Shown here: positions 1 to 46,875 of the stretch, piece by piece
How the letters are laid out: every line of letters begins with the position of its first letter
Numbering within the stretch: the stretch's first letter is position 1
From: an uncultured Pelagibacteraceae bacterium
GTDB lineage: Bacteria; Pseudomonadota; Alphaproteobacteria; Pelagibacterales; Pelagibacteraceae
Direction of reading: 5' to 3'
Assembly (NCBI GenBank): GCA_902515185.1
Contig: CABXTN010000007.1
Location: 1-46,875 of the forward strand
Length of the DNA: 46,875 nt
The notes under the pieces: generated by a model
Databases searched by the model: none
Seen by the model: only the letters and a program-made list of their open reading frames with translations
What the model was told of the DNA's origin: nothing
Translations under genes and position numbers: made by a program

Positions 1-533
1 TGGTCTTTATAAGACTTTCTAGTCAAGAATTTTGGAGAGTAAACACCGCCAGAAATATAGTTAAATAAATCTTTTTGCAACTCTCTTTCTTTTAGTCTTT
101 TTTCAAAAATTGGAGCCTCCAAATTATTGGACAGAAGAAATTTTTCGTATTTCAATCTAGAAAATTTATTATCCTCATCCATAAAATTCGAATTTGACCT
201 TATTTGTTTAGCTAGACTTTCCTCAGAAATTTTAATTTTAAATTCTTTTATTTCTTGTTCTAAAATTTTTTTTGATATTAATTCAGATAATAATTCCTCG
301 AGAATATTGTTATCTAAATTCTTCCTGATTGCATTATTATCTACTCTTAAACTGTTTATATGCTTAATGAAATCTTGCGTTGAAATATTTATATTATTAA
401 TTTTTGCTAATGAATTTGTGTTGCCACTGTTAAAGACTCCACCCATGCCCCAAAATACAAATGGTATAACAACAATAAACAATAATATTTTCGCATATAT
501 CGTTTTTGAAAAGTTTCTAATATTATTAAGCAT
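1..533 (-). CDS. ppiD: PpiD-like peptidyl-prolyl isomerase, 3' end cut by window edge
   Basis: The minus strand is open from an ATG at 533 to the left edge, giving about 177 residues of an N-terminal portion. It begins MLNNIRNFSKTIYAKILLF, has one membrane anchor at about residues 13-35 ending in a WGMGGVF motif, and continues into a periplasmic charged helical region containing a duplicated LLSELISKKILEQE-type pattern. This is the architecture of inner-membrane PpiD/SurA_N chaperones, which help outer-membrane and periplasmic proteins fold. The PPIase domain lies beyond the window. The gene diverges from tpiA, the usual alphaproteobacterial arrangement, in which trpE or trpG normally follows ppiD on the same strand. 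Seen: the translation and anchor. Inferred: the name PpiD rather than another SurA_N-family member. Confidence 0.82.
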   Translation of the reverse strand, partial: MLNNIRNFSKTIYAKILLFIVVIPFVFWGMGGVFNSGNTNSLAKINNINISTQDFIKHINSLRVDNNAIRKNLDNNILEELLSELISKKILEQEIKEFKIKISEESLAKQIRSNSNFMDEDNKFSRLKYEKFLLSNNLEAPIFEKRLKERELQKDLFNYISGGVYSPKFLTRKSYKD

Positions 534-590: not shown

Positions 591-1334
591 ATGACAAACA
601 AAATAAAGTATTTCATAGCAAATTGGAAAATGTATGGTGACTTAAAATCCTTAAAAACTATCAATAAAGTAATTAAATTTTCTAAAACTTATAAAAAAAA
701 ATTCAAGATTATTTATTGTCCACCTTATACATTACTGTATTCACTTAAAAAATTACTTAAAAAAAGCACACTAGATCTAGGTGCCCAAAATATTCATGAG
801 AGTTTAGATTATGGCCCCAACACTGGTTTTATTAATGCCAAAATGATTAAAAATAGTGGAGCAAAATTTGTTATTTTAGGACATTCAGAAAATAGAGCTT
901 TAGGTGAAAGCGATATGAGAATTAACCAAAAAATAAAATCAGCCTACAAGAATAAATTAATAGTTATTTTTTGTATTGGTGAAAGCTTGTCTGAAAAAAG
1001 ACAAAAAAAAACCAAAATAGTTTTAAAAAGACAAATAAAAAATGGTCTAAAAAACTTAAGTAAAAAAACTAACATTATAATTGCTTATGAACCTGTTTGG
1101 TCAATAGGGACAGGAATGATATTGAGTAATTCTGAACTTTCTGAAAACATAAATTATATTAAGTCATTAATTTATAAAAAATTTAAAAATTATTCAATTT
1201 TATATGGTGGCTCAGTTAATCCAAAAAATATAAATCAGATAAATAAGATTAATTTGCTTGATGGTTATCTAATTGGTGGAGCATCACTAAATCCAAAAAA
1301 ACTTATTGATATAATAAAAAAAACCTTTAATTAA
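591..1334 (+). CDS. tpiA: Triosephosphate isomerase
   Basis: Interconverts glyceraldehyde-3-phosphate and dihydroxyacetone phosphate in cytosolic glycolysis/gluconeogenesis. The 247-residue length is normal for the family. Substrate-binding Asn11 and Lys13 (FIANWKM), the electrophilic His98 (ILGHSENR) and the catalytic Glu167 (AYEPVWSIGTG) are all visible. The phosphate-binding YGGSVNP and LIGGASL loops are intact near the C-terminus. The start ATG at 591 gives the expected N-terminus. secG begins 5 bases after the stop, and the gene diverges from ppiD across a 57-base gap. It heads the tpiA-secG-pyrG-kdsA-eno run. Confidence 0.97.
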   Translation: MTNKIKYFIANWKMYGDLKSLKTINKVIKFSKTYKKKFKIIYCPPYTLLYSLKKLLKKSTLDLGAQNIHESLDYGPNTGFINAKMIKNSGAKFVILGHSENRALGESDMRINQKIKSAYKNKLIVIFCIGESLSEKRQKKTKIVLKRQIKNGLKNLSKKTNIIIAYEPVWSIGTGMILSNSELSENINYIKSLIYKKFKNYSILYGGSVNPKNINQINKINLLDGYLIGGASLNPKKLIDIIKKTFN

Positions 1335-1339
1335 GCTTC

Positions 1340-1642
1340 ATGGAAAATATATTGTTAATAATAAATGTAATCTTAGCTATTATTTTAGTGATTTTAGTTT
1401 TATTTCAAAAATCTGAAGGTGGTGCCCTAGGAATCGGTGTATCCCAAGATAATTTTATGTTCGCAAGAACAGCGGGTGATTTTTTTACTAAAGCTACAGC
1501 AATAGTAGCTACATTGTTTATAATTTGTAGCTTAAGTTTAACAATAATTTCTAGGGGTGATTTAGTGTCAGAAACCTCAGTAATTGATAAGATTGATGAA
1601 AATTCAGAAGATACTCCATTAATCCCAGATAATAACAATTAA
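1340..1642 (+). CDS. secG: SecG preprotein translocase subunit
   Basis: Small inner-membrane partner of SecYE that stimulates protein export. The 100-residue product has two membrane segments, at about residues 4-22 and 52-71. They are separated by the conserved cytoplasmic loop with QKSEGGALGIG and the FMFARTAGDFFTKAT stretch typical of SecG. The acidic C-terminal tail is short. Placement between tpiA and pyrG is the standard alphaproteobacterial context. An antisense ORF at 1405-1638 is only a shadow of this gene. Confidence 0.95.
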   Translation: MENILLIINVILAIILVILVLFQKSEGGALGIGVSQDNFMFARTAGDFFTKATAIVATLFIICSLSLTIISRGDLVSETSVIDKIDENSEDTPLIPDNNN

Positions 1643-1682: not shown

Positions 1683-3308
1683 ATGGCGCGATATATTTTT
1701 GTCACTGGCGGCGTGGTTTCATCCTTAGGGAAAGGTTTATCTTCAGCATCTTTAGCTTATTTACTTCAGTCTAGAGGTTATAAGGTAAGATTAAGAAAAT
1801 TAGATCCTTACTTAAATGTTGATCCAGGCACAATGAGTCCTTTTCAACATGGCGAAGTTTTTGTTACAGACGATGGTGCGGAAACTGATCTAGATCTGGG
1901 TCATTATGAAAGATTTACAGGTATAGCGGCAAAACAATCTGACAATATAACAACTGGTAGAATTTACAGTGATATAATTACCAAAGAAAGGCAAGGTGGG
2001 TATCAAGGTAAGACCGTACAAGTCATTCCCCATGTAACAGACAGAATTAAAGATTTTATTAAAAAAGATATAAGCTCTGAAGATTTTGTTATTTGTGAAA
2101 TTGGAGGGACTGTAGGTGATATTGAAAGTTTGCCATTTTTAGAAGCTATAAGGCAATTTTCCAATGATTATGGAAAAAAAAATACATTATTTATTCATCT
2201 CACATTGGTTCCTTACATGAAAGCTTCTGATGAGATAAAAACTAAACCAACTCAACATTCTGTTAAAGAATTAAGAACAATAGGTATACAGCCGGATATA
2301 ATTATTTGTAGATCTGAACAGTCATTGCCACATGACCAAAGAAAAAAAATATCTTTATTTTGCAATGTTCCATATGAAAATGTTATTGAAACTGTGGATG
2401 TAAAAACTATTTATGAAGCTCCAATAAGTTTTAATAAAGAAAAATTAGATAAAATTGTTTTGAATTATTTTAAACTAAAATCAAAAAAAAATGTGGATTT
2501 GAGTCCTTGGAGAAAAATAACGAATACTGTTTTAAAAACAAAGCCCTCTGTTAATATTGGTATTATAGGTAAGTACGTCAATTTAAAAGATGCCTATAAA
2601 TCATTAGATGAAGCACTAGTACATGGCGGTATTGATAACAATGTTAAAGTTAATTTAACAAGAATTGAGGCTGATAGATTAAGCTCAAATGAAATAAAAA
2701 AAAATTTGAAAAATATTTCAGGTATTTTGATTCCTGGCGGTTTTGGCAAAAGAGGCACTGAGGGAAAAATTGATGCAATTGAATTTGCAAGAAACTTTAA
2801 GATACCCTTTTTAGGAATATGTTACGGTATGCAGATGGCTGTTATAGAGTTTGCGAGAAATGTATTAAAAATCAAAAAAGCAACTTCTAGTGAGTTCAGT
2901 AAGTCCGGTGAAAATATTATTGGTTTAATGAGTGAATGGAATAAAAGTGGAAAAATTTATAAGGGTTCAGTAAAAGAACTCGGTGGAACAATGCGTCTTG
3001 GTCTATATGAAGCAAAATTATTAGAAAACTCGTTAATTAGAAAAATATATAAATCCAAAATAATTAAAGAAAGACATCGTCATAGATATGAGGTAAATAT
3101 TGATTATAAAAGTAGATTTGAGAATAGAGGCCTAATTTTTTCAGGAATATCACCAGACAATAAATTACCAGAGGTAATTGAGCTTAAAAATCATCCCTGG
3201 TTTATAGGTGTTCAGTTTCACCCAGAATTTAAATCTAGACCTTTAAACCCACATCCTTTATTCTCATCATTTATCAAGGCTGTAAAAACCAAAAATGAAA
3301 AATATTAA
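1683..3308 (+). CDS. pyrG: CTP synthase
   Basis: Makes CTP from UTP, ATP and glutamine. The 541 residues match the family. The N-terminal synthetase domain begins [18 protein letters not shown] with the P-loop-like lysine, followed by the [20 protein letters not shown] and GHYERF motifs. The C-terminal class I glutamine amidotransferase domain has its nucleophile at Cys380 (GICYGMQ) and the His/Glu pair in VQFHPEF near residue 515. GICYGMQ replaces the commoner GICLGMQ, a mild change. The 3' end overlaps kdsA by 14 bases, implying translational coupling. Confidence 0.98.
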
Positions 3309-24760: not shown

Positions 24761-25962
24761 TGAAAATTAGACCGGTTATTCTATGTGGTGGAGCAGGTAC
24801 GAGACTGTGGCCTAAAAAATCAAAACATCAAGCAAAGCAGTTTATAGATTTTGGAGGTTGGACCTTAATTAATAAAACTTTTGATAGAATTAAAAGCAAT
24901 GTTTTTGATTATCCAATCATCAGTACTAATTCAAAGTATCTGAGGGAAGTTAAAAAAGCTTTAAAAAGAAGTCGAATTAGTAAATATAAAATAGTTTTGG
25001 AGCCAGCAAAAAAAAATACTGCCCCTGCAATTTTGGCATCAGCATTAATTAAAGAAATTCCAAACAACCAGCCACTAATGTATTTTACTGCTGACCATTT
25101 AATTGAAAAACCAAATAAGCTTATTAGTGCAATTAACAAAAATAAATCAAATTTAGATGAAAAAAATGTATTTATATTTGGTATTAAACCAACAAATCCA
25201 TCAAGTGAATATGGTTACTTCTTAAGTAAAAATGTAAAAAATATTAATAAAGTGACTAGATTTATTGAGAAACCAAAACAAGCAAAAGCTAAACTAGTTA
25301 TAAAACAAAAAGGATACTGGAATTCAGGTATGTTTTTTTTAAGAAAAGACTCAATAATTAATAATTTTAAGAGATATCAGCCTAATATTTTTCGAAACTG
25401 TAGCAAAGCTGTAACAAAAGCAAAATATAAAAGTAATGTGTATTATTTAAATAAACAAGCATTTACTAAAGCAACAGCAAAGTCTTTTGATTACGCAATA
25501 TTAGAAAAAACAAAAAATATAAACGCAATTAAATTAGATATTCCATGGTCAGACTTAGGAAGCTGGAAAGAAATTTGTAAAATGTATGGCAAAAACAAAA
25601 ATAAGTACTTTAAAAAGAAGAATGTATTTCATAGACCATGGGGCAGCTACACAAACTTATTTAAAGGGAAAGAATTCTTAATTAAAGAATTATATGTGAA
25701 ACCCAAAGGTATTTTAAGTCTTCAAAAACATCATCATAGAGCAGAACATTGGGTTGTTACTCATGGTAAACCTAAAATTACTTTAAATAAAAAATATTTT
25801 ACAATGAATCAAGATGAAACTATCTTTATTCCATTAGGCGCAATCCATAGAATAGAAAATCCATATAAAAAACCAGTTAAAATTATAGAAGCTCAAGTAG
25901 GATCGATATTAAAAGAAACTGATATAGTTAGATATCAAGACATATATGGTCGTGTTAAATAA
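24760..25962 (+). CDS. manC: Mannose-1-phosphate guanylyltransferase / mannose-6-phosphate isomerase, short form
   Basis: Produces GDP-mannose for surface polysaccharide. Residues 1-~270 are the nucleotidyltransferase: PVILCGGAGTRLWPKKS with the Lys of HQAKQF, FTADHLI, SEYGYFL, RFIEKPK, and NSGMFFLRK. Residues ~290-400 form the type II phosphomannose isomerase cupin, with HRPWGSY, LQKHHHRAEHWVV and IPLGAIHRIEN. At 400 residues it is shorter than the ~470 usual for bifunctional members, apparently from a trimmed linker. There is no surface-polysaccharide cluster around it. The stop codon lies in a long hairpin. Confidence 0.9.
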   Translation: MKIRPVILCGGAGTRLWPKKSKHQAKQFIDFGGWTLINKTFDRIKSNVFDYPIISTNSKYLREVKKALKRSRISKYKIVLEPAKKNTAPAILASALIKEIPNNQPLMYFTADHLIEKPNKLISAINKNKSNLDEKNVFIFGIKPTNPSSEYGYFLSKNVKNINKVTRFIEKPKQAKAKLVIKQKGYWNSGMFFLRKDSIINNFKRYQPNIFRNCSKAVTKAKYKSNVYYLNKQAFTKATAKSFDYAILEKTKNINAIKLDIPWSDLGSWKEICKMYGKNKNKYFKKKNVFHRPWGSYTNLFKGKEFLIKELYVKPKGILSLQKHHHRAEHWVVTHGKPKITLNKKYFTMNQDETIFIPLGAIHRIENPYKKPVKIIEAQVGSILKETDIVRYQDIYGRVK

Positions 25963-25978
25963 ATTAACATGACCATAT
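25944..25978. terminator. 15-bp hairpin spanning the manC stop, shared by convergent genes
   Basis: Arms 25944-25958 (ATATGGTCGTGTTAA) and 25964-25978 (TTAACATGACCATAT) pair over 15 positions with a single G-T wobble, leaving a 5-base ATAAA loop. The manC stop codon (25960-25962) is in the loop. The structure lies between two converging genes and reads as a hairpin on both strands. It has no long T-run, so it may be a bidirectional terminator or an mRNA 3'-end-stabilising hairpin. Confidence 0.72.
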
Positions 25979-25986
25979 AAATATAT

Positions 25987-26952
25987 TTAAAACCAATTAT
26001 TTGGAATAATTATGTAATGAATTGCTAAAACAATTCCAACCGATACACTTAGTCCAAAGATCATCTTAAGAAAGTCTTTACCAATTAATGGGAAGACATA
26101 TTTAAATTTATAATCTTTATTCATCGTTGAAATTGCAAGTTCTCTACCACATAATAAACCAACAAATACCCATGTTGTTGACATAGGTAAGTCATTTAGT
26201 TCTTTAAAGTAGAATAATACTGCAGCATAAATTATGTTAATAATTGTAGCTGATCTTGCATATCTTGTTCCTGTTTTTTCCAAAACTACTGTTTGGATCC
26301 GTCCACCTTGAATGTAGAAGATGTAGAATAGCAAAGCAGTAAAATATGCCATTACAGTTAGAAGTATTGTAATATCAAGTTGTCTTGGAAGATATACTGC
26401 AATATTTGCTACATCGTGAGATAACCAAACCCACCATAACCAACCTGAAGTGACCCATACTGAGTTTCTCCAAAAGCCTATATACTTTTCATCAACTTCA
26501 TCTAATTTTTCATTGATAAATTTTGAAACTACTATCCAAGCAATATAAGCGACCATAGCAGCTAAACCATATCCAACTACACTTTTTAATAGCATTTTTT
26601 CAAGCACAACTGTTGAAGCAAATGCTGAAAGAACTAAAAAGGTTGTTGATACAGGTATTCCAACTCTTGTTAATATTAAGAGTATTGCAGGCGCTACTGC
26701 ATGATACCATTGAATTTCTTGATAAGGTATTCTAGTTAATCTTCCATATGAAATATCACCATCATACGCATACCATCCCCATGCCAAAGCTAAAATCATT
26801 ACACTAGAAGCTGATCCTGCAAGTACGTACCATTTAAACCACTTCTTTTTAGAAGCTATAAATGTACCCAGTGTTTGAATTGAGTCGTTAGCGATTACGC
26901 TGTAACCGGCAAGGGCAAACCCTATAACCGTGTAAACTAAAGTCATTTCCAT
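25987..26952 (-). CDS. PiT-superfamily-like inorganic ion permease
   Basis: A 321-residue polytopic membrane protein (about eight hydrophobic segments). Two internal signature repeats resemble the PiT phosphate/sulfate permease family: IANDSIQTLGTF at about residues 20-31 and LPMSTTWVFVGLLCGRELAIS near residues 255-276. A third segment VGIPVSTTFLVLSAFAS is at ~109-125, like the PiT GIPVSTTH loop. His of STTH is replaced by Phe or Trp. This matches the fold expected of SLC20-type transporters, but the substrate is not shown. No DUF47/PhoU partner is adjacent. ATG at 26952 is preceded by AAGGGAG. Confidence 0.72.
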   Translation of the reverse strand: MEMTLVYTVIGFALAGYSVIANDSIQTLGTFIASKKKWFKWYVLAGSASSVMILALAWGWYAYDGDISYGRLTRIPYQEIQWYHAVAPAILLILTRVGIPVSTTFLVLSAFASTVVLEKMLLKSVVGYGLAAMVAYIAWIVVSKFINEKLDEVDEKYIGFWRNSVWVTSGWLWWVWLSHDVANIAVYLPRQLDITILLTVMAYFTALLFYIFYIQGGRIQTVVLEKTGTRYARSATIINIIYAAVLFYFKELNDLPMSTTWVFVGLLCGRELAISTMNKDYKFKYVFPLIGKDFLKMIFGLSVSVGIVLAIHYIIIPNNWF

Positions 26953-27036
26953 TTTTTTTCTCCCTTATATTATTGTTCTCGGTTCCTGTTGATTCATGAC
27001 TTAAGGAGTATGTAATATGAGAAGAAAAATAATTCT

Positions 27037-27065
27037 ATATAAAAATTTTTTGATTTGAGAATCAA
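27037..27065 (-). promoter_or_regulatory. Candidate sigma-70 promoter for the PiT-like gene
   Basis: On the minus strand a -35-like TTGATT (27065-27060) and a -10-like TTATAT (27042-27037) are separated by 17 bases, about 85 bases before the ATG at 26952. The -35 box lies inside an inverted repeat, TTTTGATT/AATCAAAA at 27048-27067. AT-rich sequence makes promoter matches cheap, so confidence is limited. Confidence 0.35.
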
Positions 27066-27067
27066 AA
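27048..27067. repeat. Inverted repeat upstream of the PiT-like gene
   Basis: TTTTGATT (27048-27055) and AATCAAAA (27060-27067) form 8-bp perfect arms around TGAG. On the minus strand the right side is followed by A/T-rich sequence ending in five T, so it could be a weak terminator for the small membrane-protein gene at 27118-27339. It could instead be an operator overlapping the next promoter. Confidence 0.4.
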
Positions 27068-27117
27068 GGTGGATTTATCAATAACTAAACTAATTAGAAG
27101 CAAAGTCTACTTTAAAA

Positions 27118-27339
27118 TTAAAATACAACCTTAAAAATACCAATGATAAATAATGGTATCTGTAATCCAAAATTAGCAAGTATAGCTTTATCTTTACTAA
27201 TAAATCCAGCGATAGTCCATCCAACAACTCCCAACCCATGAAAATAGATATTTAAAGGATATATATTTAGGTTTGTTAATAGAATACCAATTAATACTAG
27301 AAATGTACTAATCCATTTAAGATATTTCTTAATAAACAT
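27118..27339 (-). CDS. Small hypothetical membrane protein (possibly DUF6552-like)
   Basis: A 73-residue protein with three short hydrophobic stretches, at about residues 8-26, 31-47 and 53-72. The middle has GLGVVGWTIAGFISKDKA. The layout resembles small proteins annotated as DUF6552 in marine proteobacteria, but this is from memory of pattern, not a search. AAAGGGAAAC lies just before the ATG at 27339. It is transcribed in the same direction as the PiT-like permease, 165 bases upstream of it. No function is proposed. Confidence 0.6.
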   Translation of the reverse strand: MFIKKYLKWISTFLVLIGILLTNLNIYPLNIYFHGLGVVGWTIAGFISKDKAILANFGLQIPLFIIGIFKVVF

Positions 27340-27383
27340 ATGTTTCCCTTTCAGCTTGTTTTATTTAGATTTTAAATAATAAC

Positions 27384-27776
27384 TTATCTACATTTTTTAC
27401 ATAATCCAAAAAACTCAAGATTGTATTTACTATATTTCATACCATCTTTGTCTTTGAAATTAGTTAAGTATTTAGAAAGACTTGCACTGCTAATTTCTGT
27501 TACTTTTTCACAGATCTCACAAATTGAAAAAGCAGTAGCTTTTGATACCTGACAGCTTGAATTATGACATGCAATAAAGGCATTTCGACTTTCAATTTTA
27601 TGAATTTTTCCTATTTTAACTAACTTATCCAGTGCTCTATAAACTTGTAACGGAGCTTTAATCCCCTTTTTTTGAACATTGTGTAGTATTGAATAAGCTT
27701 TCATTGGTTCAGGCGATTTATCAATTAAATCAAAAATGATTTGTTGATTTTTTGAAAGGGTTTGCATTTTATCCAT
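27384..27776 (-). CDS. zur: Zur, zinc-responsive Fur-family repressor
   Basis: A 130-residue Fur-family metalloregulator that represses zinc uptake when zinc is plentiful. The winged-helix domain (1-~65) has KAPLQVYRALDKLVKIGKIHKIE. The structural zinc site is Cys86/Cys89 (CEIC) and Cys126/Cys129 (CKKC). Cys70, His71 and Cys75 lie where Zur places its regulatory site. The dimerisation domain seems slightly shortened relative to many Fur proteins. It is the third gene of znuC-znuB-zur, 15 bases after znuB, so it is probably autoregulated from the shared operator region near 29363-29395. Confidence 0.93.
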   Translation of the reverse strand: MDKMQTLSKNQQIIFDLIDKSPEPMKAYSILHNVQKKGIKAPLQVYRALDKLVKIGKIHKIESRNAFIACHNSSCQVSKATAFSICEICEKVTEISSASLSKYLTNFKDKDGMKYSKYNLEFFGLCKKCR

Positions 27777-38355: not shown

Positions 38356-38577
38356 ATGCCACAAATTGGCTGGTTTGAAATATTAATAATTGTTTCAATT
38401 GCTATAATTGTAGTTGGTCCTAAAGATTTTCCTGTAATGCTTAAAAAAATAGGTTCATGGATAGGTTCTGTTAAAAAATATGTTTCAAGTGTTCAGAGCG
38501 AAATATCTTCTTTAGAAAATGAAGAGATTATAGACAATAAAAAAAAAGAAACAAAAGTAGACAATAATGACATCTAA
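38356..38577 (+). CDS. tatB: TatB twin-arginine translocase subunit, short
   Basis: A 73-residue Tat receptor component. The membrane helix IGWFEILIIVSIAIIVVGPKDFP is the TatB signature, with the GPKDFP hinge, followed by an amphipathic helix. Many TatB proteins run to 120-200 residues; here nearly all of the C-terminal tail is gone. It overlaps tatC by 11 bases. Confidence 0.93.
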   Translation: MPQIGWFEILIIVSIAIIVVGPKDFPVMLKKIGSWIGSVKKYVSSVQSEISSLENEEIIDNKKKETKVDNNDI

Positions 38578-39337
38578 TGATGATAAAATGGGTTTCATCA
38601 GTCACCTCACTGAACTAAGAAAAAGATTAATAAGTTGTTTAATATTTTTAATGGGTATTTTTGTAATATGTTATTTTTTTTCAGATTATATTTATGGGTT
38701 TTTAGTTGAACCTTATTCTTCATCTGTTGAAAATGATGGAATAGAAAGACGTTTAATATTTACTGCTTTACAAGAAACCTTTTTAACATATCTGAAAGTC
38801 TCATTTTTTACTGCTTTTTTTATAACATTTCCCTTTATATTAATTCAAATTTGGATGTTTATAGCACCAGGATTATATAAACATGAAAAATCTGCATTAA
38901 TGCCTTACTTAATAATAACACCTATATTATTTATACTTGGTGGCATGCTCGTATATTATTTAATTATGCCCCTAGCAATAAAATTTTTTCTTTCATTTGA
39001 AAGCTCAGGTACAATAACTAATTTACCAATTCAATTAGAGGCAAAGGTTAATGAATATTTATCATTAATAATGAAACTTATTTTTGCTTTTGGTATAAGT
39101 TTTCAATTACCTGTTGTTCTAAGTTTGTTAGCAAGGATTGGTTTTATTGATTCGAAATTTTTAAAACAAAGAAGAAAATACGTAGTTGTAATAATATTTG
39201 CTGCAGCAGCATTACTGACACCACCTGATCCTATTACGCAAATTGGATTAGCAATACCGCTTTTAATTTTATATGAATTATCAATTTTTTCTGTAAATAT
39301 AATAGAAAAAAAAGCTAAAGAAAAAGAACATGCATAA
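38567..39337 (+). CDS. tatC: TatC twin-arginine translocase core
   Basis: A 256-residue, six-span inner-membrane protein that recognises twin-arginine signal peptides. FISHLTELRKRLISCLIF at the N-terminus and the FLTYLKVSFF region, FPFILIQIWMFIAPGLY, and LLTPPDPITQI near residue 220 are diagnostic. It overlaps tatB at its start and serS by 8 bases at its end. Confidence 0.96.
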   Translation: MTSNDDKMGFISHLTELRKRLISCLIFLMGIFVICYFFSDYIYGFLVEPYSSSVENDGIERRLIFTALQETFLTYLKVSFFTAFFITFPFILIQIWMFIAPGLYKHEKSALMPYLIITPILFILGGMLVYYLIMPLAIKFFLSFESSGTITNLPIQLEAKVNEYLSLIMKLIFAFGISFQLPVVLSLLARIGFIDSKFLKQRRKYVVVIIFAAAALLTPPDPITQIGLAIPLLILYELSIFSVNIIEKKAKEKEHA

Positions 39338-40271
39338 CATTAAAGATATTAGAACTAACCTAGACAGTTTTGAAAGACTTATATCAAAGCGTAATATCAA
39401 AATTGAAAAAAATAATATCATTAAACTTGATGCAGAAAATAGAAGCTTAATTCAAAGTAAAGAACTATTAGAAAAAGAAAAAAAAGATATATCAAAAAAA
39501 AAAGATCAAAATTTATTTGAAAAATCTAAAGAAATTTCAAAAAAAATTGAAAAAATATCTACAGATCAATCTAAAATTAAATTTAAACTTGATAACATAT
39601 TGTCTTCACTGCCTAACTTACCTTTAGATGATGTACCAGTAGGTATGGATGAAAATTCAAATGTTGAAATTAAAAAATATGGTGAATTAAAAAAATTTGA
39701 TTTTAATCCTAAATCACACTATGAGATTGGTAATGATCTTAATATGCTAGATTTTGATTTAGCTACCAAAACAACAGGATCAAGATTTGTATTTGTAAAA
39801 AATAAGTTGGCTCATTTAGAAAGAGCTCTATCAAATTTTATGATTGATACGCATATAAATAAAAATAATTATTCTGAGATATCTCCACCTTTAATCGCTA
39901 ATGAGAATACTATGTTTGGTACCGGGCAGTTGCCAAAGTTTGAAAATGATCAATTTGAGTTAATTCTAGATGATAAAAATGAACGTAAATTTTTAATCCC
40001 TACAGCTGAAGTTATATTAACAAATATGGTAAAAGATAAAATTTTAGATATTAAAGATCTTCCATTACGATTAGTGGCCTCAACACCATGTTTTAGAAAA
40101 GAAGCAGGCAGTTATGGTAAGGATACTAAGGGTATGATAAGACAACATCAATTTTATAAAGTTGAGCTAGTGAGCATTGTTGAGCCAAATAGCTGTAGTA
40201 ATGAATTAGACAGAATGACAAACTGCGCAACAGATATTTTAGATCAACTTAAATTACCTTATAGAAAAGTG
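39330..40271 (+). pseudogene. serS: 3'-truncated serS portion of the chimeric ORF
   Basis: This is the seryl-tRNA synthetase part (residues 1-~314). It has the tRNA-binding coiled coil and motifs 1-2 but not motif 3, which binds ATP and is needed for amino-acid activation. SerS is essential, so a complete copy must exist elsewhere if this joint is real. Confidence 0.85.
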
Positions 40272-40463
40272 TATGCTGGTGGAATTGGATATTTTTCTTC
40301 AAATGGTGACTTTGATACATGTATAGCCTTAAGGACGGCTATAGCGAAAAATAATAAATATTATGTTCAAGCAGGTGCTGGTATAGTTGCTGACAGTAAA
40401 CCAATCAAAGAATACGATGAAACAGTTAACAAAGCTAAAGCCTTAATAAGTGCACTCGAATAA
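39330..40463 (+). CDS. Chimeric ORF: SerS N-terminal ~314 residues joined to TrpE C-terminal ~63 residues
   Basis: This 377-residue frame is two genes joined. Residues 1-~314 are seryl-tRNA synthetase: the coiled-coil tRNA arm (~25-95), TTGSRFVFVKNKLAHLERAL, TAEVILTNMV, and class II motif 2, FRKEAGSYGKDTKGMI at 255-270, ending DQLKLPYRKV. A real SerS continues with ~100 more residues including motif 3; these are absent. From Tyr315 the sequence is the end of anthranilate synthase component I: YAGGIGYFSSNGDFDTCIAL, YVQAGAGIVADS, ETVNKAKAL. The joint is at about 40266-40275. The product would lack seryl-adenylate chemistry and most of TrpE. tatC-serS upstream and trpE-trpG downstream are normal neighbours on their own sides. 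Confidence 0.9.
   Translation: MHNIKDIRTNLDSFERLISKRNIKIEKNNIIKLDAENRSLIQSKELLEKEKKDISKKKDQNLFEKSKEISKKIEKISTDQSKIKFKLDNILSSLPNLPLDDVPVGMDENSNVEIKKYGELKKFDFNPKSHYEIGNDLNMLDFDLATKTTGSRFVFVKNKLAHLERALSNFMIDTHINKNNYSEISPPLIANENTMFGTGQLPKFENDQFELILDDKNERKFLIPTAEVILTNMVKDKILDIKDLPLRLVASTPCFRKEAGSYGKDTKGMIRQHQFYKVELVSIVEPNSCSNELDRMTNCATDILDQLKLPYRKVYAGGIGYFSSNGDFDTCIALRTAIAKNNKYYVQAGAGIVADSKPIKEYDETVNKAKALISALE
40272..40463 (+). pseudogene. trpE: 5'-truncated trpE portion of the chimeric ORF
   Basis: About 63 C-terminal residues of anthranilate synthase component I, from YAGGIGYF to the stop. CIALRT and QAGAGIVADS, parts of the chorismate site, are kept, but roughly the first 400+ residues are missing. 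The stop overlaps trpG by one base (TAATG), the expected trpE-trpG junction. Confidence 0.88.
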
Positions 40464-41038
40464 TGAAAATTTTATTAATAGATAATTACGATAGTTTTAC
40501 ATTTAATTTATTCCATTATCTTTCTTCGTTAAATGTAAAAGTTGACGTCATTAGAAATGATAAAATAACACCTAAACAAATTTTAAAAAAAAAGTATCAC
40601 AAAATAGTTATTTCGCCAGGTCCAGGAAATCCAAATCAATCAGGTAATTGTATTAAAATCGTAAAATCTCTTTATAAAAAAATTCCAATATTGGGTGTTT
40701 GTTTAGGTCATCAAATAATTGGACAAGTTTTTGGATCAAAAATAGTGCAAACTAAAAAATTAATGCATGGAAAAACTAGCAAAATTATTTCTAATAAAAA
40801 AGGGATACTAGAAAATTTACCAAAAATATTTGATGCAACTAGATATCATAGCCTAATAATTGATAAAAAAACTATATCTAGAGATCTTGAAATTATAGCT
40901 GAAACCAGAGATGGTTTGATTATGGGTATTAAACATAAGAAATATAATGTGCATGGAGTGCAATTTCATCCAGAAAGTATTAAAACAAAGATAGGTATTA
41001 AAATATTAAAAAACTTTATTAATTATAAGCTTAAATGA
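40463..41038 (+). CDS. trpG: Anthranilate synthase component II (glutamine amidotransferase)
   Basis: A 191-residue class I glutamine amidotransferase that feeds ammonia to TrpE. LLIDNYDSFTFNLFHYL is the TrpG/PabA start, VISPGPGNPNQSG follows, the nucleophile Cys is in LGVCLGHQIIG, and the His/Glu pair in GVQFHPESI. The conserved RYHSLIID segment is present. TrpG versus PabA cannot be separated by sequence alone, but the trpDC neighbours favour TrpG. It overlaps the frameshifted trpD by 4 bases. Confidence 0.93.
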   Translation: MKILLIDNYDSFTFNLFHYLSSLNVKVDVIRNDKITPKQILKKKYHKIVISPGPGNPNQSGNCIKIVKSLYKKIPILGVCLGHQIIGQVFGSKIVQTKKLMHGKTSKIISNKKGILENLPKIFDATRYHSLIIDKKTISRDLEIIAETRDGLIMGIKHKKYNVHGVQFHPESIKTKIGIKILKNFINYKLK

Positions 41039-42028
41039 TAGAATTTATAAAAAAAATCAAAAATAAAAAAAATTTATCTTTTAAAGAAAGTATATCTGCT
41101 TTTAAAATTTTAATGGAAGGCAAAGCAAAAGATGAAGAAATATTTGATTTTTTGACATCGCTATCTTTAAAGGGAGAAGCATCTGACGAAATTGCTGGGG
41201 GGGGTTTATACCTTAAGAGATAAATCAAAAAGAGTTAAAGTAGATAATTGTATTGATACATGTGGTACAGGTGGAGATGGTAAGAATACTCTAAATATTT
41301 CTACTGCATCTGCATTATTATTAGCTAGTATGGGTATTAAAGTTGCCAAGCATGGAAATAAAGCTGTTTCATCAAAATGTGGGTCAGGAGATGTATTAGA
41401 AGAATTAAATATTAAAATTAACTTAGAGCCTAAAGATATTGAGGAACAAATTCACAAAAACAATTTTGGTTTTATGTTTGCGCCTAATTATCATAATGCA
41501 ATGAAATTTGTAGGACCAACAAGAAAAAAAATTGGTAAAAGGACTATTTTTAATATGATTGGTCCTTTAAGTAGCCCTGCTCTGGTCAAGCGCCAAGTAA
41601 TTGGTGTCTTTGATAAAAAATTTTTAACTGTATTTGCAAATGCACTAAAAAATTTAGATATTAAATTTGCATGGATTGTAAATAGTGAAGATGGTTTAGA
41701 TGAAATATCACCTTATGCTAAAACTAATATAGTACAATTAAAAGATAAAAAAATTTCTGAAATTGTTATAGACCCAAAAAATTTTAATGTTAATGCAGAT
41801 AAATTTGAAAATCTTGTTGGAGATGATGCTAAATTTAATGCTAAAAAAATGGTAGATATATTCAAAGGTGAAGATAATGATTTTTCTAAAGCAGTCTGCT
41901 TAAATGCTGCAGCAGGCTTAATTGTTTCAGAAAAGTATGATAATTTTGGATCCGCATATAATTATGCAAGGGATTTTATAAAATCAGGTAAAGCATATGA
42001 ACATTTGGTAAAAATACAAAATGTCTGA
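41035..42028 (+). pseudogene. trpD: Anthranilate phosphoribosyltransferase, split by a +1 frameshift at G8
   Basis: Frame 1 (41035-41223) gives the N-terminal helical domain, ending at ASDEIAGG then a stop. The next frame continues as GGVYTLRDKSKRVKVDNCIDTCGTGGDGKNTLNISTASALL to the stop at 42028, with the PRPP motif GTGGDG, KHGNKAVSS, and FNMIGPL. The break lies in eight G at 41197-41204. Seven G would read IAGGVYTLRDK in one open frame of about 330 residues, the family length. Phosphoribosyl transfer in tryptophan synthesis is lost unless slippage or a sequencing error is involved. Confidence 0.93.
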
Positions 42029-42815
42029 AAATACCCTTGATAAAATAATTAAAAAAAAGTGGGAAAAAATTGATACTTTCAAAAAAATCAAAGACATAAA
42101 TCTCTTACAAGATCTGATTGATAAAAATAATTATTTTATCGATTTTAAAGAAAAAATTCAAAATACAATAATTTCTAATAAATTAGCACTCATAGCGGAA
42201 ATTAAAAAAGCTAGTCCATCTGCTGGAATTATTATTGATGAATATAGTCCAGTCAAAATTGCAAATATTTATAAAAATAATAATGCTACATGTTTGTCAG
42301 TTTTAACAGAAGAGAATTTTTTTTTAGGTAACTTAAATCATATCAGCGAAATTAAAAAAGAAATAAAATTACCAGTTTTATGTAAAGATTTTTTTGTTGA
42401 TAAATATCAAGTGCCTCTAGCAAAAAGCTATGGCGCTGATGCAATATTAATAATTATGGCAGCCGTATCAGATAAAATTGCCTATGAGATGTATGAGGAT
42501 GCTTTAAAATTTAACATGTCAGTTATTGTTGAAGTTCACACTGTTCAAGAAGCTAAAAGAGCGTTAAATTTCAAGGAAGCTTTAATAGGAATAAATAACA
42601 GAAACTTAAAAACATTAAAAACAGATATAAATACAACCTACGATATTCACGATGTGTTGATAAATCATAATGGTCCACTAATATCTGAGAGTGGAATAAA
42701 AAGTAAAAATGAAATTTTAGATTTAATTGATAAAACAAAAATTAAAACTTTTTTAATTGGTGAATCACTTCTTAAAAATTTAGAAAAAAATTCTATTTTC
42801 ACTTTATTTAACTAA
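42021..42815 (+). CDS. trpC: Indole-3-glycerol phosphate synthase
   Basis: A 264-residue TIM barrel closing the indole ring in tryptophan synthesis. LIAEIKKASPSAGII carries the catalytic Lys region, LSVLTEENFFLGNLNHI, LPVLCKDFFVDKYQ, IVEVHTVQEAKRAL and LIGINNRNLKT are the signature elements, with ISESGI and FLIGESLL near the end. It is intact and overlaps trpD by 8 bases, showing that the operon's downstream gene is still open even though trpD is split. Confidence 0.95.
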   Translation: MSENTLDKIIKKKWEKIDTFKKIKDINLLQDLIDKNNYFIDFKEKIQNTIISNKLALIAEIKKASPSAGIIIDEYSPVKIANIYKNNNATCLSVLTEENFFLGNLNHISEIKKEIKLPVLCKDFFVDKYQVPLAKSYGADAILIIMAAVSDKIAYEMYEDALKFNMSVIVEVHTVQEAKRALNFKEALIGINNRNLKTLKTDINTTYDIHDVLINHNGPLISESGIKSKNEILDLIDKTKIKTFLIGESLLKNLEKNSIFTLFN

Positions 42816-42860
42816 ATTAATCGCAATTAACGCGGTTTTTAAGCTATTGTTAATTTAAAA

Positions 42861-42875
42861 GAACTTTTGTAGAAC
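42861..42875. promoter_or_regulatory. LexA box upstream of lexA
   Basis: GAACTTTTGTAGAAC is GAAC-N7-GAAC, on the opposite strand GTTC-N7-GTTC, the direct-repeat SOS operator of alphaproteobacteria. It ends 22 bases before the lexA start at 42898, where bound LexA would block its own promoter. Confidence 0.9.
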
Positions 42876-42897
42876 ATATGTGTACTTAATTTGTTCT

Positions 42898-43575
42898 ATG
42901 TTAACTAAAAAACAAAAAAACCTGTTACTATTTATCAACAAAAAGTTGAGATCTTCAGGTATTTCTCCATCATATGAAGAAATGAAATCTTCATTAAATC
43001 TTAAATCTAAATCAGGAATACATAGATTAATAAGTGCTTTAGAAGAGAGAGGTTTTATTAAAAGACTAGCCCATAAGGCTAGAGCTCTAGAGGTTGTTAA
43101 ATTACCTGAAACCGCTTCTGCAAACGATATTTATAATAGTTTTTCACCTAGCGTAATAAAAGGTGGTCTAGATGACATTACAAACCGTAATGATGGATCT
43201 GAAATTCCTGTTTTAGGAAAAATTGCAGCTGGTACACCTGTTGAAGCTATACAAAATGAGGTTTCTAGAATTCCTTTACCTAGCAATATAGAGAAAAAAG
43301 GTGAATATTTTGGATTGAAAGTACAAGGAGATTCCATGATTGAGGCAGGTATAAATGATGGGGATACAGTCGTAATTAAAAAAACAGATATAGCAGATAA
43401 CGGTAAAATAGTAGTTGCGTTAATTGATGATCATGAGGCAATGCTAAAAAGAATTAGAAAAAAAGGAAAAACAGTTGCACTAGAAAGTGCCAATAAAAAT
43501 TACGAAACTAAAATTTTTGGACCTGATAGAGTGAAAGTTCAGGGAGTTCTTGTATCTTTATATAGAAGTTTCTAA
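42898..43575 (+). CDS. lexA: LexA SOS repressor
   Basis: A 225-residue self-cleaving repressor. The N-terminal winged helix (1-~70) has SGISPSYEEMKSSLNLKSKS. The cleavage site is Ala111-Gly112 (KIAAGTP), with the dyad Ser146 (QGDSMIEAG) and Lys184 (EAMLKRI). ATG at 42898 is preferred because the box at 42861-42875 then falls at the promoter; a GTG at 42880 would add six residues. The lexA-gltX order follows trpC, as in the alphaproteobacterial cluster, although moaC and moeA are absent. Confidence 0.96.
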   Translation: MLTKKQKNLLLFINKKLRSSGISPSYEEMKSSLNLKSKSGIHRLISALEERGFIKRLAHKARALEVVKLPETASANDIYNSFSPSVIKGGLDDITNRNDGSEIPVLGKIAAGTPVEAIQNEVSRIPLPSNIEKKGEYFGLKVQGDSMIEAGINDGDTVVIKKTDIADNGKIVVALIDDHEAMLKRIRKKGKTVALESANKNYETKIFGPDRVKVQGVLVSLYRSF

Positions 43576-43597
43576 ATAAATATAATAAACAATTAGA

Positions 43598-44998
43598 ATG
43601 AAAAAAGTGGCAACTCGATTTGCTCCATCGCCTACTGGACCTCTGCATATAGGTGGGGTTAGAACAGCATTATTTAATTGGTTATATTCAAAGAATCAAA
43701 AAGGTGTTTTTTATTTAAGAGTAGAAGATACAGATCAAGAAAGATCAAAAGATGAATATAAAGACCAAATAATTAAATCTCTTAAATGGATTGGTATTAA
43801 CTATGATGGAGATGAATATATACAGTCCAAAAAAATTGAAGACCATATTAAAATTGTAAATGAGTTACTTAAAAATGGTCATGCTTATAAATGTTATTGT
43901 TCAAATGAAGAAATAGAAGAACAAAAAAAAAGAGCAAGACAAAAAAAAATTCCTTATATCTATGACCGAAAGTGGAGAGACAAAAATGAAGAGGATGCCC
44001 CAAAAGATATTAAGCCAGTCATAAGATTTAAAAGTAAAATAGATGGAACTGCTACATTAAATGACTTAGTTCAAGGTGAGGTTAAAATCGACAATAATAC
44101 AATTGAAGATTTTATTATCTTGCGAAATGATGGAACGCCAACATACAATTTATCAGCATCTGTCGATGATCATCAAATGAATATGACACACATAATTAGA
44201 GGTGATGACCATAAAATAAATACCTTCAAACAAATACAAATTTATCAAGCTATGAAATGGGAGCTTCCTTCTTTTGCTCACATACCTTTAATTCACACAA
44301 TTGAAGGAAGGAAATTATCAAAGAGAGACAAGGCCTCTACATTAGATGATTATTCCAAAATTGGCATCATCCCAGATGCTCTAAGAAATTATCTTCTTAG
44401 ATTAGGATGGTCTTATAAAGATAAAGAAATATTCACTTTAGATGAAAGTATTAAACATTTTAATCTTGAGGGTATTGGTAAATCTCCATCTAAACTAGAT
44501 ATGAGTAGAATTTTATCAATGAATGAGCACTACATTAAGAATATCGATGAAAATGATTTATACGATCTACTAACGGAGTATTGCAAATTATATAAAAGTG
44601 AAATTAAATCAGATAAAAAAGATAAGATTAAAAAATCTCTAATCTTCCTTAAAAATAAAGCTAAAACCTTGGAAGATATATTTAATAATGGTCAATATAT
44701 TATGGTAGACGAGGTTAATTTTAACCAGGATGATATTAAGTTAATAGATGATAAGGCCAAAAAAGTCATTTCTGATTTCAATACTCAATTTAATAGAATT
44801 GATAAATTGAGCAAAGAAACATTAGAGCCAATAGTAAACGAATTGATTAAATCAAACGATACAAATTTTAAAGGGGTTGGACAGCCTTTAAGAATAGCTT
44901 TAACAGGTTCAAAGTTTGGACCTGGAATATATGATATAATTATTTCTCTTGGTAAAGATGAAGTAACAAAAAGATTAACCAATAAGAAACTTGGTTAA
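43598..44998 (+). CDS. gltX: Glutamyl-tRNA synthetase
   Basis: Class I synthetase of 466 residues charging tRNA-Glu. RFAPSPTGPLHIGGVRTALF (HIGH motif, residues 7-26) and KLSKR at 239-243 are intact, with RVEDTDQERS and IIRGDDHKINTFKQI. Alphaproteobacteria often have a second copy with tRNA-Gln specificity; only one is in this window. The 3' end overlaps the convergent lpxB by 24 bases. Confidence 0.96.
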   Translation: MKKVATRFAPSPTGPLHIGGVRTALFNWLYSKNQKGVFYLRVEDTDQERSKDEYKDQIIKSLKWIGINYDGDEYIQSKKIEDHIKIVNELLKNGHAYKCYCSNEEIEEQKKRARQKKIPYIYDRKWRDKNEEDAPKDIKPVIRFKSKIDGTATLNDLVQGEVKIDNNTIEDFIILRNDGTPTYNLSASVDDHQMNMTHIIRGDDHKINTFKQIQIYQAMKWELPSFAHIPLIHTIEGRKLSKRDKASTLDDYSKIGIIPDALRNYLLRLGWSYKDKEIFTLDESIKHFNLEGIGKSPSKLDMSRILSMNEHYIKNIDENDLYDLLTEYCKLYKSEIKSDKKDKIKKSLIFLKNKAKTLEDIFNNGQYIMVDEVNFNQDDIKLIDDKAKKVISDFNTQFNRIDKLSKETLEPIVNELIKSNDTNFKGVGQPLRIALTGSKFGPGIYDIIISLGKDEVTKRLTNKKLG

Positions 44999-46111
44999 TA
45001 CTGAAGACGCTTCATCAGAAGATGAGGTTTTTGATCTGATTTTAGTTAAAGTTTCCTCACAATCGTTAATTTGTTTTTTCATTAATTCTGGATTTTTTAA
45101 AAAGTAAACAACAGAATTGTAAATCTCTTTAGCATTACACTCTTTTTGTATTAATTCTGGAATTATTTCTTTGTCATTTATAATGTTAATAATGTTAGCA
45201 AATTTTATTTTGACCAACATTTTAACAATCAAAAAATTTAAAAAATTCATTTTATAGATAATTATAGATGGAACTTTTGCATTACAGATCTCAAGAGAAA
45301 CTGTGCCAGATTTAGAAACTGCAAAAATAGATTTATTTAGCATTTGTTTTTTTATATTTTCATCAGAAATAACTTCGACATTTTTTAAATTTACATTATT
45401 AATCTTTTTGCTAATTAAATTCTTATTTTCATCAGTTGCATGAAATACAAAAGTTAAATTATCAAATTTTGTATTCATCATATTTATAAAATCAATTAAT
45501 ATGGGCAAAAGTAAATTTACTTCAGATGATCTACTACCTGAAAAAAGAGAAATAATCTTTTTATCATTTGATATGATACTAGATAGATCTATTTTATCTT
45601 TCAATTCTTGTTCTAATAATGGATGTCCAACAAAAGTATTTGGAATATTTTCTTTATCAAAATATTTTTTTTCAAAATCAAATAATAATAAAATATGATC
45701 TAAGAATTTTTTAAACTTTTTTACTCTTCCCTTTCTCCAAACCCATACTTGTGGAGCCACATAATGAACTGTCTTAATTCCATTATTCAATTTTTTAACT
45801 TTTTCAGCAACTCTTAATGTAAAATCGGGACTATCTACACTAAATAAAATATCTGGATTAAATTTTATTATCTCCTCTACAGTTATATTTATTTTATTCA
45901 TTATTTTGAAAATATTTAACAGAACACTTGTGAATCCAATGTAGGTAATTTCTTTAAGATTAAAAATAGATTTTATTCCTAAAGTATTTAAATGTGTTCC
46001 ACCAACACAAGAATACTCAATATTAGGATTTTTTTTTTTCAATTTAGATATAACTTTAGAGGCAAGTTTATCTCCAGAAGGTTCACCAGTTAATATAAAA
46101 ATCTTTTTCAT
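44975..46111 (-). CDS. lpxB: Lipid-A-disaccharide synthase
   Basis: A 378-residue glycosyltransferase family 19 enzyme joining UDP-diacylglucosamine and lipid X. ILTGEPSGDKLASKVI at the start, HYVAPQVWVWRKGRVKKFKKFLDHIL near residues 141-166, and LFSGSRSSEVNLLLPI near residue 193 are the family motifs. An 11-T tract at 46029-46039, an A-run when read, encodes lysines near the N-terminus and could slip. It overlaps lpxI by 4 bases. Confidence 0.95.
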   Translation of the reverse strand: MKKIFILTGEPSGDKLASKVISKLKKKNPNIEYSCVGGTHLNTLGIKSIFNLKEITYIGFTSVLLNIFKIMNKINITVEEIIKFNPDILFSVDSPDFTLRVAEKVKKLNNGIKTVHYVAPQVWVWRKGRVKKFKKFLDHILLLFDFEKKYFDKENIPNTFVGHPLLEQELKDKIDLSSIISNDKKIISLFSGSRSSEVNLLLPILIDFINMMNTKFDNLTFVFHATDENKNLISKKINNVNLKNVEVISDENIKKQMLNKSIFAVSKSGTVSLEICNAKVPSIIIYKMNFLNFLIVKMLVKIKFANIINIINDKEIIPELIQKECNAKEIYNSVVYFLKNPELMKKQINDCEETLTKIRSKTSSSDEASSVLTKFLIG

Positions 46112-46875
46112 TTTACTGAGATGAACATCTTATTTTTATTTGCAAATTTAATACATTTGTTTTTATCTAAAAAAACGTGTTGTTTGCTTTTTATAACAAT
46201 ACCTTTTAATCCAGTTGTCTTACTTTGTTTTAAGGTTTTTAATCCAATCGTTGGAAGATCCACTCTCAAGTCTTGTTTTTTTTTTGGAAATTTAACTAAA
46301 ACTCCATAATTTCTAAATTTTTTGCTTCTACTTTTTTCAAGCATTTTTTTAGTTCCACCTTCACCCTCTATAGAAACAACTTTTTTATTTCTAACTACAA
46401 CTCCTTGACTAAAATTATATTGTCTTAAATTATTTAGAGTGTTTATTGCTTTTTTTATATCTAATTGGTCTTGTTTATTTGGTTTAAATTTTGAATAATT
46501 GCCTTTTTTTAATGAAAGTTCAGGATTAAATTTAAGCGAATTTTCAGTTTTGATCTTGTTTTGGGCCAATATCTCAATAATTTCTTTAAGTATTGCTGCA
46601 TCACCAAGCTTCGATGCTTTGATAATTCTTGGAATATAATAAATACCTTTGAAGTCTAATTTTAGTTTAGAAAAGTTTGGTTTATTTACCTTTCCAGCAA
46701 ATAAGACTTTTTTACAATTATTTTCCTTAAGAATATTAATAATTTTACCAAATTGACCTATAGAAACTGAATAAGATTTTCTATCCTTTTTAAACTTCTT
46801 TGATTTTGACAAATCAATTATCAAATATTTAATTTTCCTTTTTTGGACAGTTTTTAGAATTTCCTTTGGAAATTC
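46108..46875 (-). CDS. lpxI: UDP-2,3-diacylglucosamine pyrophosphatase LpxI, 5' end cut by window edge
   Basis: The alphaproteobacterial replacement for LpxH, making lipid X. The minus frame is open to the right edge: EFPKEILKTVQKRKIKYLII… is in line with the family N-terminus, missing perhaps the first eight residues (an IAGNG-like motif). IGQFGKIINILKENNCKKVLFAGKVNKP, DLPTIGLKTLK and GLKGIVIKSKQ are the DUF1009 motifs. A TTG at 46824 is not the true start. lpxI-lpxB beside gltX is the usual order. Confidence 0.92.
   Translation of the reverse strand, partial: EFPKEILKTVQKRKIKYLIIDLSKSKKFKKDRKSYSVSIGQFGKIINILKENNCKKVLFAGKVNKPNFSKLKLDFKGIYYIPRIIKASKLGDAAILKEIIEILAQNKIKTENSLKFNPELSLKKGNYSKFKPNKQDQLDIKKAINTLNNLRQYNFSQGVVVRNKKVVSIEGEGGTKKMLEKSRSKKFRNYGVLVKFPKKKQDLRVDLPTIGLKTLKQSKTTGLKGIVIKSKQHVFLDKNKCIKFANKNKMFISVK

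Follow-up and report, generated by a model that had tools for sequence, protein, structure and literature searches.

The window, a 46,875-b stretch of DNA that is the whole of contig C7 in assembly G000, is very probably an MDA/assembly chimera joined at positions 40264–40270 and not the product of an inversion. On sequence grounds, positions 1–40270 (ppiD-tpiA ... tatC-serS) are taken to be one native stretch, and the native place of the last 6.6 kb (40271–46875, from the 3' end of trpE to lpxI) is taken to be just left of ppiD, in the opposite orientation. The contig holds no sequence left of position 1. G000 is a Pelagibacteraceae-like draft of 1.04 Mb in 45 contigs and is 86.6% complete. 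Since nearly all of its close relatives are single-cell assemblies, with AG- or AH- names and NODE contigs, G000 is itself most likely a single amplified genome.

The closed relative G012 was used as the synteny reference for both the window and contig C1. G012 has the Pelagibacteraceae order gltX-lexA-trpC-trpD-trpG-trpE-ppiD / tpiA-secG-pyrG ... tatC-serS-yajC-secD-secF, and this local order is kept on each side of the window join (Table 1). Unlike the window, G012 carries intact trpE (minus strand, 531 kb) and serS (plus strand, 580 kb) on opposite strands about 48 kb apart. Window positions 3–40270 are collinear with G012 533.6–580.5 kb, and the start of C1 is collinear with G012 from 580.5 kb onward. 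Positions 40439–46875 are collinear with G012 531.3–524.9 kb in reverse; the whole segment from 40271 to 46875 corresponds, reversed, to G012 531.5 to 524.9 kb, on the far side of trpE. Counting G012, trpE and serS were on opposite strands and 41–89 kb apart in 10/11 same-genus genomes in which a single contig carries the two (G004, G005, G008, G009, G012, G035, G038, G049, G054 and G058), and in 6/6 such genomes of the same order (sister family). The sequence-only reading had given this order as the usual one, which is correct for the closed G012 and for the genomes counted above. It had also placed ppiD(-)/tpiA(+) at the left edge and trpG-trpD-trpC-lexA-gltX behind serS at the right edge, as ORF and profile matches confirm. 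The comparison with a closed genome that it proposed was made with G012, where serS and trpE are not adjacent.

Two further observations concern gene order. The eleventh same-genus genome, G056, is the one exception among all genomes that have the two genes on a single contig: on G056:C8 trpE and serS share a strand. The sequence between them is mostly N, so the order there cannot be judged. Within the window, about 1.4 kb (25962–27384) stands in place of about 8 kb of the closed G012 (559.7–567.6 kb), and an ORF inside this replacement (25987–26952, minus strand) is without a Pfam match.

Table 1. Features at the left and right edges of the window
Feature	Positions	Strand	Evidence or remark
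ppiD 5' part, first 177 codons (SurA_N_3 domain)	3..533	-	PF13624, E 7e-31; cut by contig end
tpiA, normal divergent arrangement with ppiD	591..1334	+	G012 counterpart 534198-534932
secG	1340..1642	+	G012 synteny
pyrG (CTP synthase)	1683..3308	+	G012 synteny
tatC, usual upstream neighbour of serS	38567..39337	+	G012 synteny
serS 5' part, about 313 codons	39330..40270	+	real-genome continuation on contig C1
Probable chimeric junction, GAAAAGT microhomology common to serS and trpE	40264..40270	+	alignment to relatives
trpE 3' end, start of segment taken to be misplaced	40264..40463	+	in frame with serS by chance
trpG	40463..41038	+	G012 synteny
trpD, +1 frameshift in 8-G run at about 41195-41202	41035..42028	+	
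trpC	42021..42815	+	G012 synteny
lexA	42880..43575	+	G012 synteny
gltX	43598..44998	+	G012 synteny
lpxB	44975..46111	-	G012 synteny
lpxI, cut by contig end	46108..46875	-	G012 synteny

The join falls inside a single open frame of 377 codons (39330–40463), a serS::trpE hybrid. Residues 1–314 match seryl-tRNA synthetase (TIGR00414 positions 1–321, E 5e-93), and residues 300–377 correspond to the C-terminal end of anthranilate synthase component I (TIGR00564 positions 378–454, E 3.5e-27). The chance of such a hybrid being in frame is one in three. Alignment to the nearest relatives revealed that the window tracks serS as far as TATAGAAAAGT and trpE from GAAAAGTGTATGCTGG onward, with the 7-nt microhomology GAAAAGT, drawn from genes on opposite strands, at the join itself. 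In relatives, serS and trpE each carry these 7 nt at the corresponding position (serS ...CAGAAAAGTTTTATT, trpE ...CGAAAAGTTTATGCTGG). Both breakpoints cut coding sequence, including that of the single-copy essential gene serS. Further along the misplaced segment, the eight-G run of trpD is one base shorter in relatives (GGAGGAG/GGTGGAG). The frameshift there is probably a sequencing or assembly indel, because the single-cell workflow makes about 3 indels per 100 kb (PMC11247762).

The missing 3' part of serS was located at C1:2–271, where it is the first feature of that contig (TIGR00414 337–418; 92% identical to the nearest relative). It is followed by yajC, secD and secF, as in relatives, and then by uvrA (minus), ssb and gyrA; these names were read from the ORF sequences, without a family search. 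No second copy of serS was found in the assembly. A weak match on C27 (E 1e-7) was rejected as a second serS, as it looks like another class II synthetase. The 5' part of trpE was found nowhere in the 86.6% complete assembly, and the search for it yielded only one junction; a C2 match to TrpE (30% identity) was set aside as a paralogue, probably pabB. The remainder of ppiD was sought in the other contigs of the assembly and was likewise not found.

The position at which C1 starts is informative. SPAdes in single-cell mode has a final k of 55 by default, and contigs that neighbour a fork overlap by 55 nt. In the Single Cell Genomics Center (SCGC) pipeline, single-cell SPAdes assembly is followed by removal of 100 bp at either end of every contig, and contigs must exceed 2,000 bp to be retained (PMC5519541; PMC9007364). 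A fork at GAAAAGT predicts a true-serS contig that starts 55 nt before the fork end and, after 100 are trimmed, 45 nt past it. This offset (55 + 45 = 100) matches the observed start of C1, which lies exactly 45 nt from the end of GAAAAGT in 6/6 relatives measured. The match implies that the reads covered unbroken serS as well as the serS-trpE join; in other words, the contig-end arithmetic implies a normal serS-serS read path in the sample. The native piece that is absent, about 2.1 kb by G012 coordinates, is near the 2,000-bp retention limit, and its absence says little.

We infer an amplification step that would account for the join. During phi29 MDA a displaced 3' end in serS (...AGAAAAGT) would re-anneal at the matching 7 nt of the opposite-strand trpE and would then be extended along the trpE strand. 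SPAdes would follow the serS-trpE junction into C7, and the true continuation of serS would become C1. Displaced 3' ends prime on nearby displaced strands during phi29 amplification. More than 85% of MDA chimeras are inverted, with 2–21 nt of complementarity at more than 70% of junctions (PMC1855051). The window shows the same features, since it maps to the plus and then the minus strand of G012 and has GAAAAGT at the junction. The normal path in the same sample is seen indirectly, in the serS 3' part that opens C1 with its normal neighbours. In human MDA data 7 nt is the most frequent overlap length (PMC5372508). WGA-X, the SCGC amplification, uses a phi29 variant, and its read-level chimeras are no different from those of standard MDA (PMC5519541). 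For the published SAG workflow the benchmark rate of misassembly was about 1.5 per 100 kb (PMC11247762), so about 16 would be expected in an assembly of 1.04 Mb.

The window resembles the phi29 chimeras of Lasken and Stockwell 2007 (PMC1855051) in its opposite-strand join, its 7-nt complementarity, the loss of the intervening sequence and the lack of a reciprocal product. It differs from most of them in the distance between the joined pieces, which are about 42 kb apart in native order. This separation counts against an MDA chimera, most of which span less than 10 kb, as a tendency and not a requirement. The window would belong to the minority class of inverted chimeras with more than 10 kb between segments, which made up 69/475 of those described (PMC1855051).

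A second, independent join was observed in the public single-cell assembly AG-898-F23 (L097 10935–10960, G031:C13, NODE_13). There serS breaks off at the same codon and continues into inverted uvrA through a microhomology of about 8 nt (AGAAAAAT), again between opposite strands. This join shares with the window the serS position (AGAAAA), the opposite-strand microhomology and, most likely, the single-cell origin. The partner is a different gene, uvrA, which G012 has on its minus strand about 5 kb downstream of serS, and the two reading frames do not continue into one another across the join. Two chimeras at one A-rich serS site with different partners are consistent with an A-rich 3' end acting as the primer. 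A conserved DNA hairpin immediately beyond the serS breakpoint was also considered as the cause and is not supported, as one relative folds well there (z -4.2) and three others do not.

A chromosomal inversion of about 42 kb in this lineage, with breakpoints inside trpE and serS, would give exactly the gene order seen, and the open hybrid frame is also in its favor. The sequence-only reading had proposed such an event. Its account of the usual order, of breakpoints within the two genes and of a flip that restores the order holds. The inversion itself is not supported, as the serS 3' part opens C1 beside its normal neighbours, the C1 start fits a forked graph followed by trimming, and the microhomology is of the MDA type. 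Furthermore, an inversion would destroy the sole serS, leaving a hybrid without the last quarter of the enzyme, the part that includes class II core motif 3. Essential genes at the breakpoints of a real inversion should be intact or duplicated, but serS is split and single. The reciprocal trpE 5'/serS 3' junction, which the sequence-only reading had predicted, was not seen in the assembly, and had it existed as a unique sequence with 7 nt of homology, nothing would have led the assembler to end a contig within 45 nt of it, where C1 starts. A real inversion should also be common to at least one related genome, yet neither the inversion nor a serS-trpE fusion was found in any of the 100 relatives searched (0/100), a set that contains no same-species genomes. 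We consider an inversion in this lineage very improbable. A true inversion that arose recently in the single cell, cutting serS and trpE and leaving the hybrid ORF, would mean a dying or partially diploid cell and is likewise hardly to be expected.

Mis-joined reads or fragment ligation, in the assembler or the sequencing library rather than through the amplification enzyme, would leave an identical contig-level signature, with serS divided between C7 and C1. Against an assembler mis-join stands the 7-nt overlap: assembly k-mers are all much longer, and the junction must therefore exist in the reads. Ligation chimeras need no microhomology, but the joins in the window and in AG-898-F23 both have 7–8 nt of it, between opposite strands. 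An origin in the assembler or library is therefore highly unlikely.

The apparent inversion is almost certainly an ordinary laboratory artefact and not a real feature. As a real rearrangement it would matter only if loss of the sole seryl-tRNA synthetase were possible for a SAR11 cell. In single-cell assemblies, artefactual hybrid ORFs and inversions can be told by microhomology at an opposite-strand junction and by another contig whose start lies a fixed distance past the breakpoint (here 45 nt), and surveys of synteny and gene fusion in single-cell genomes should screen for both.
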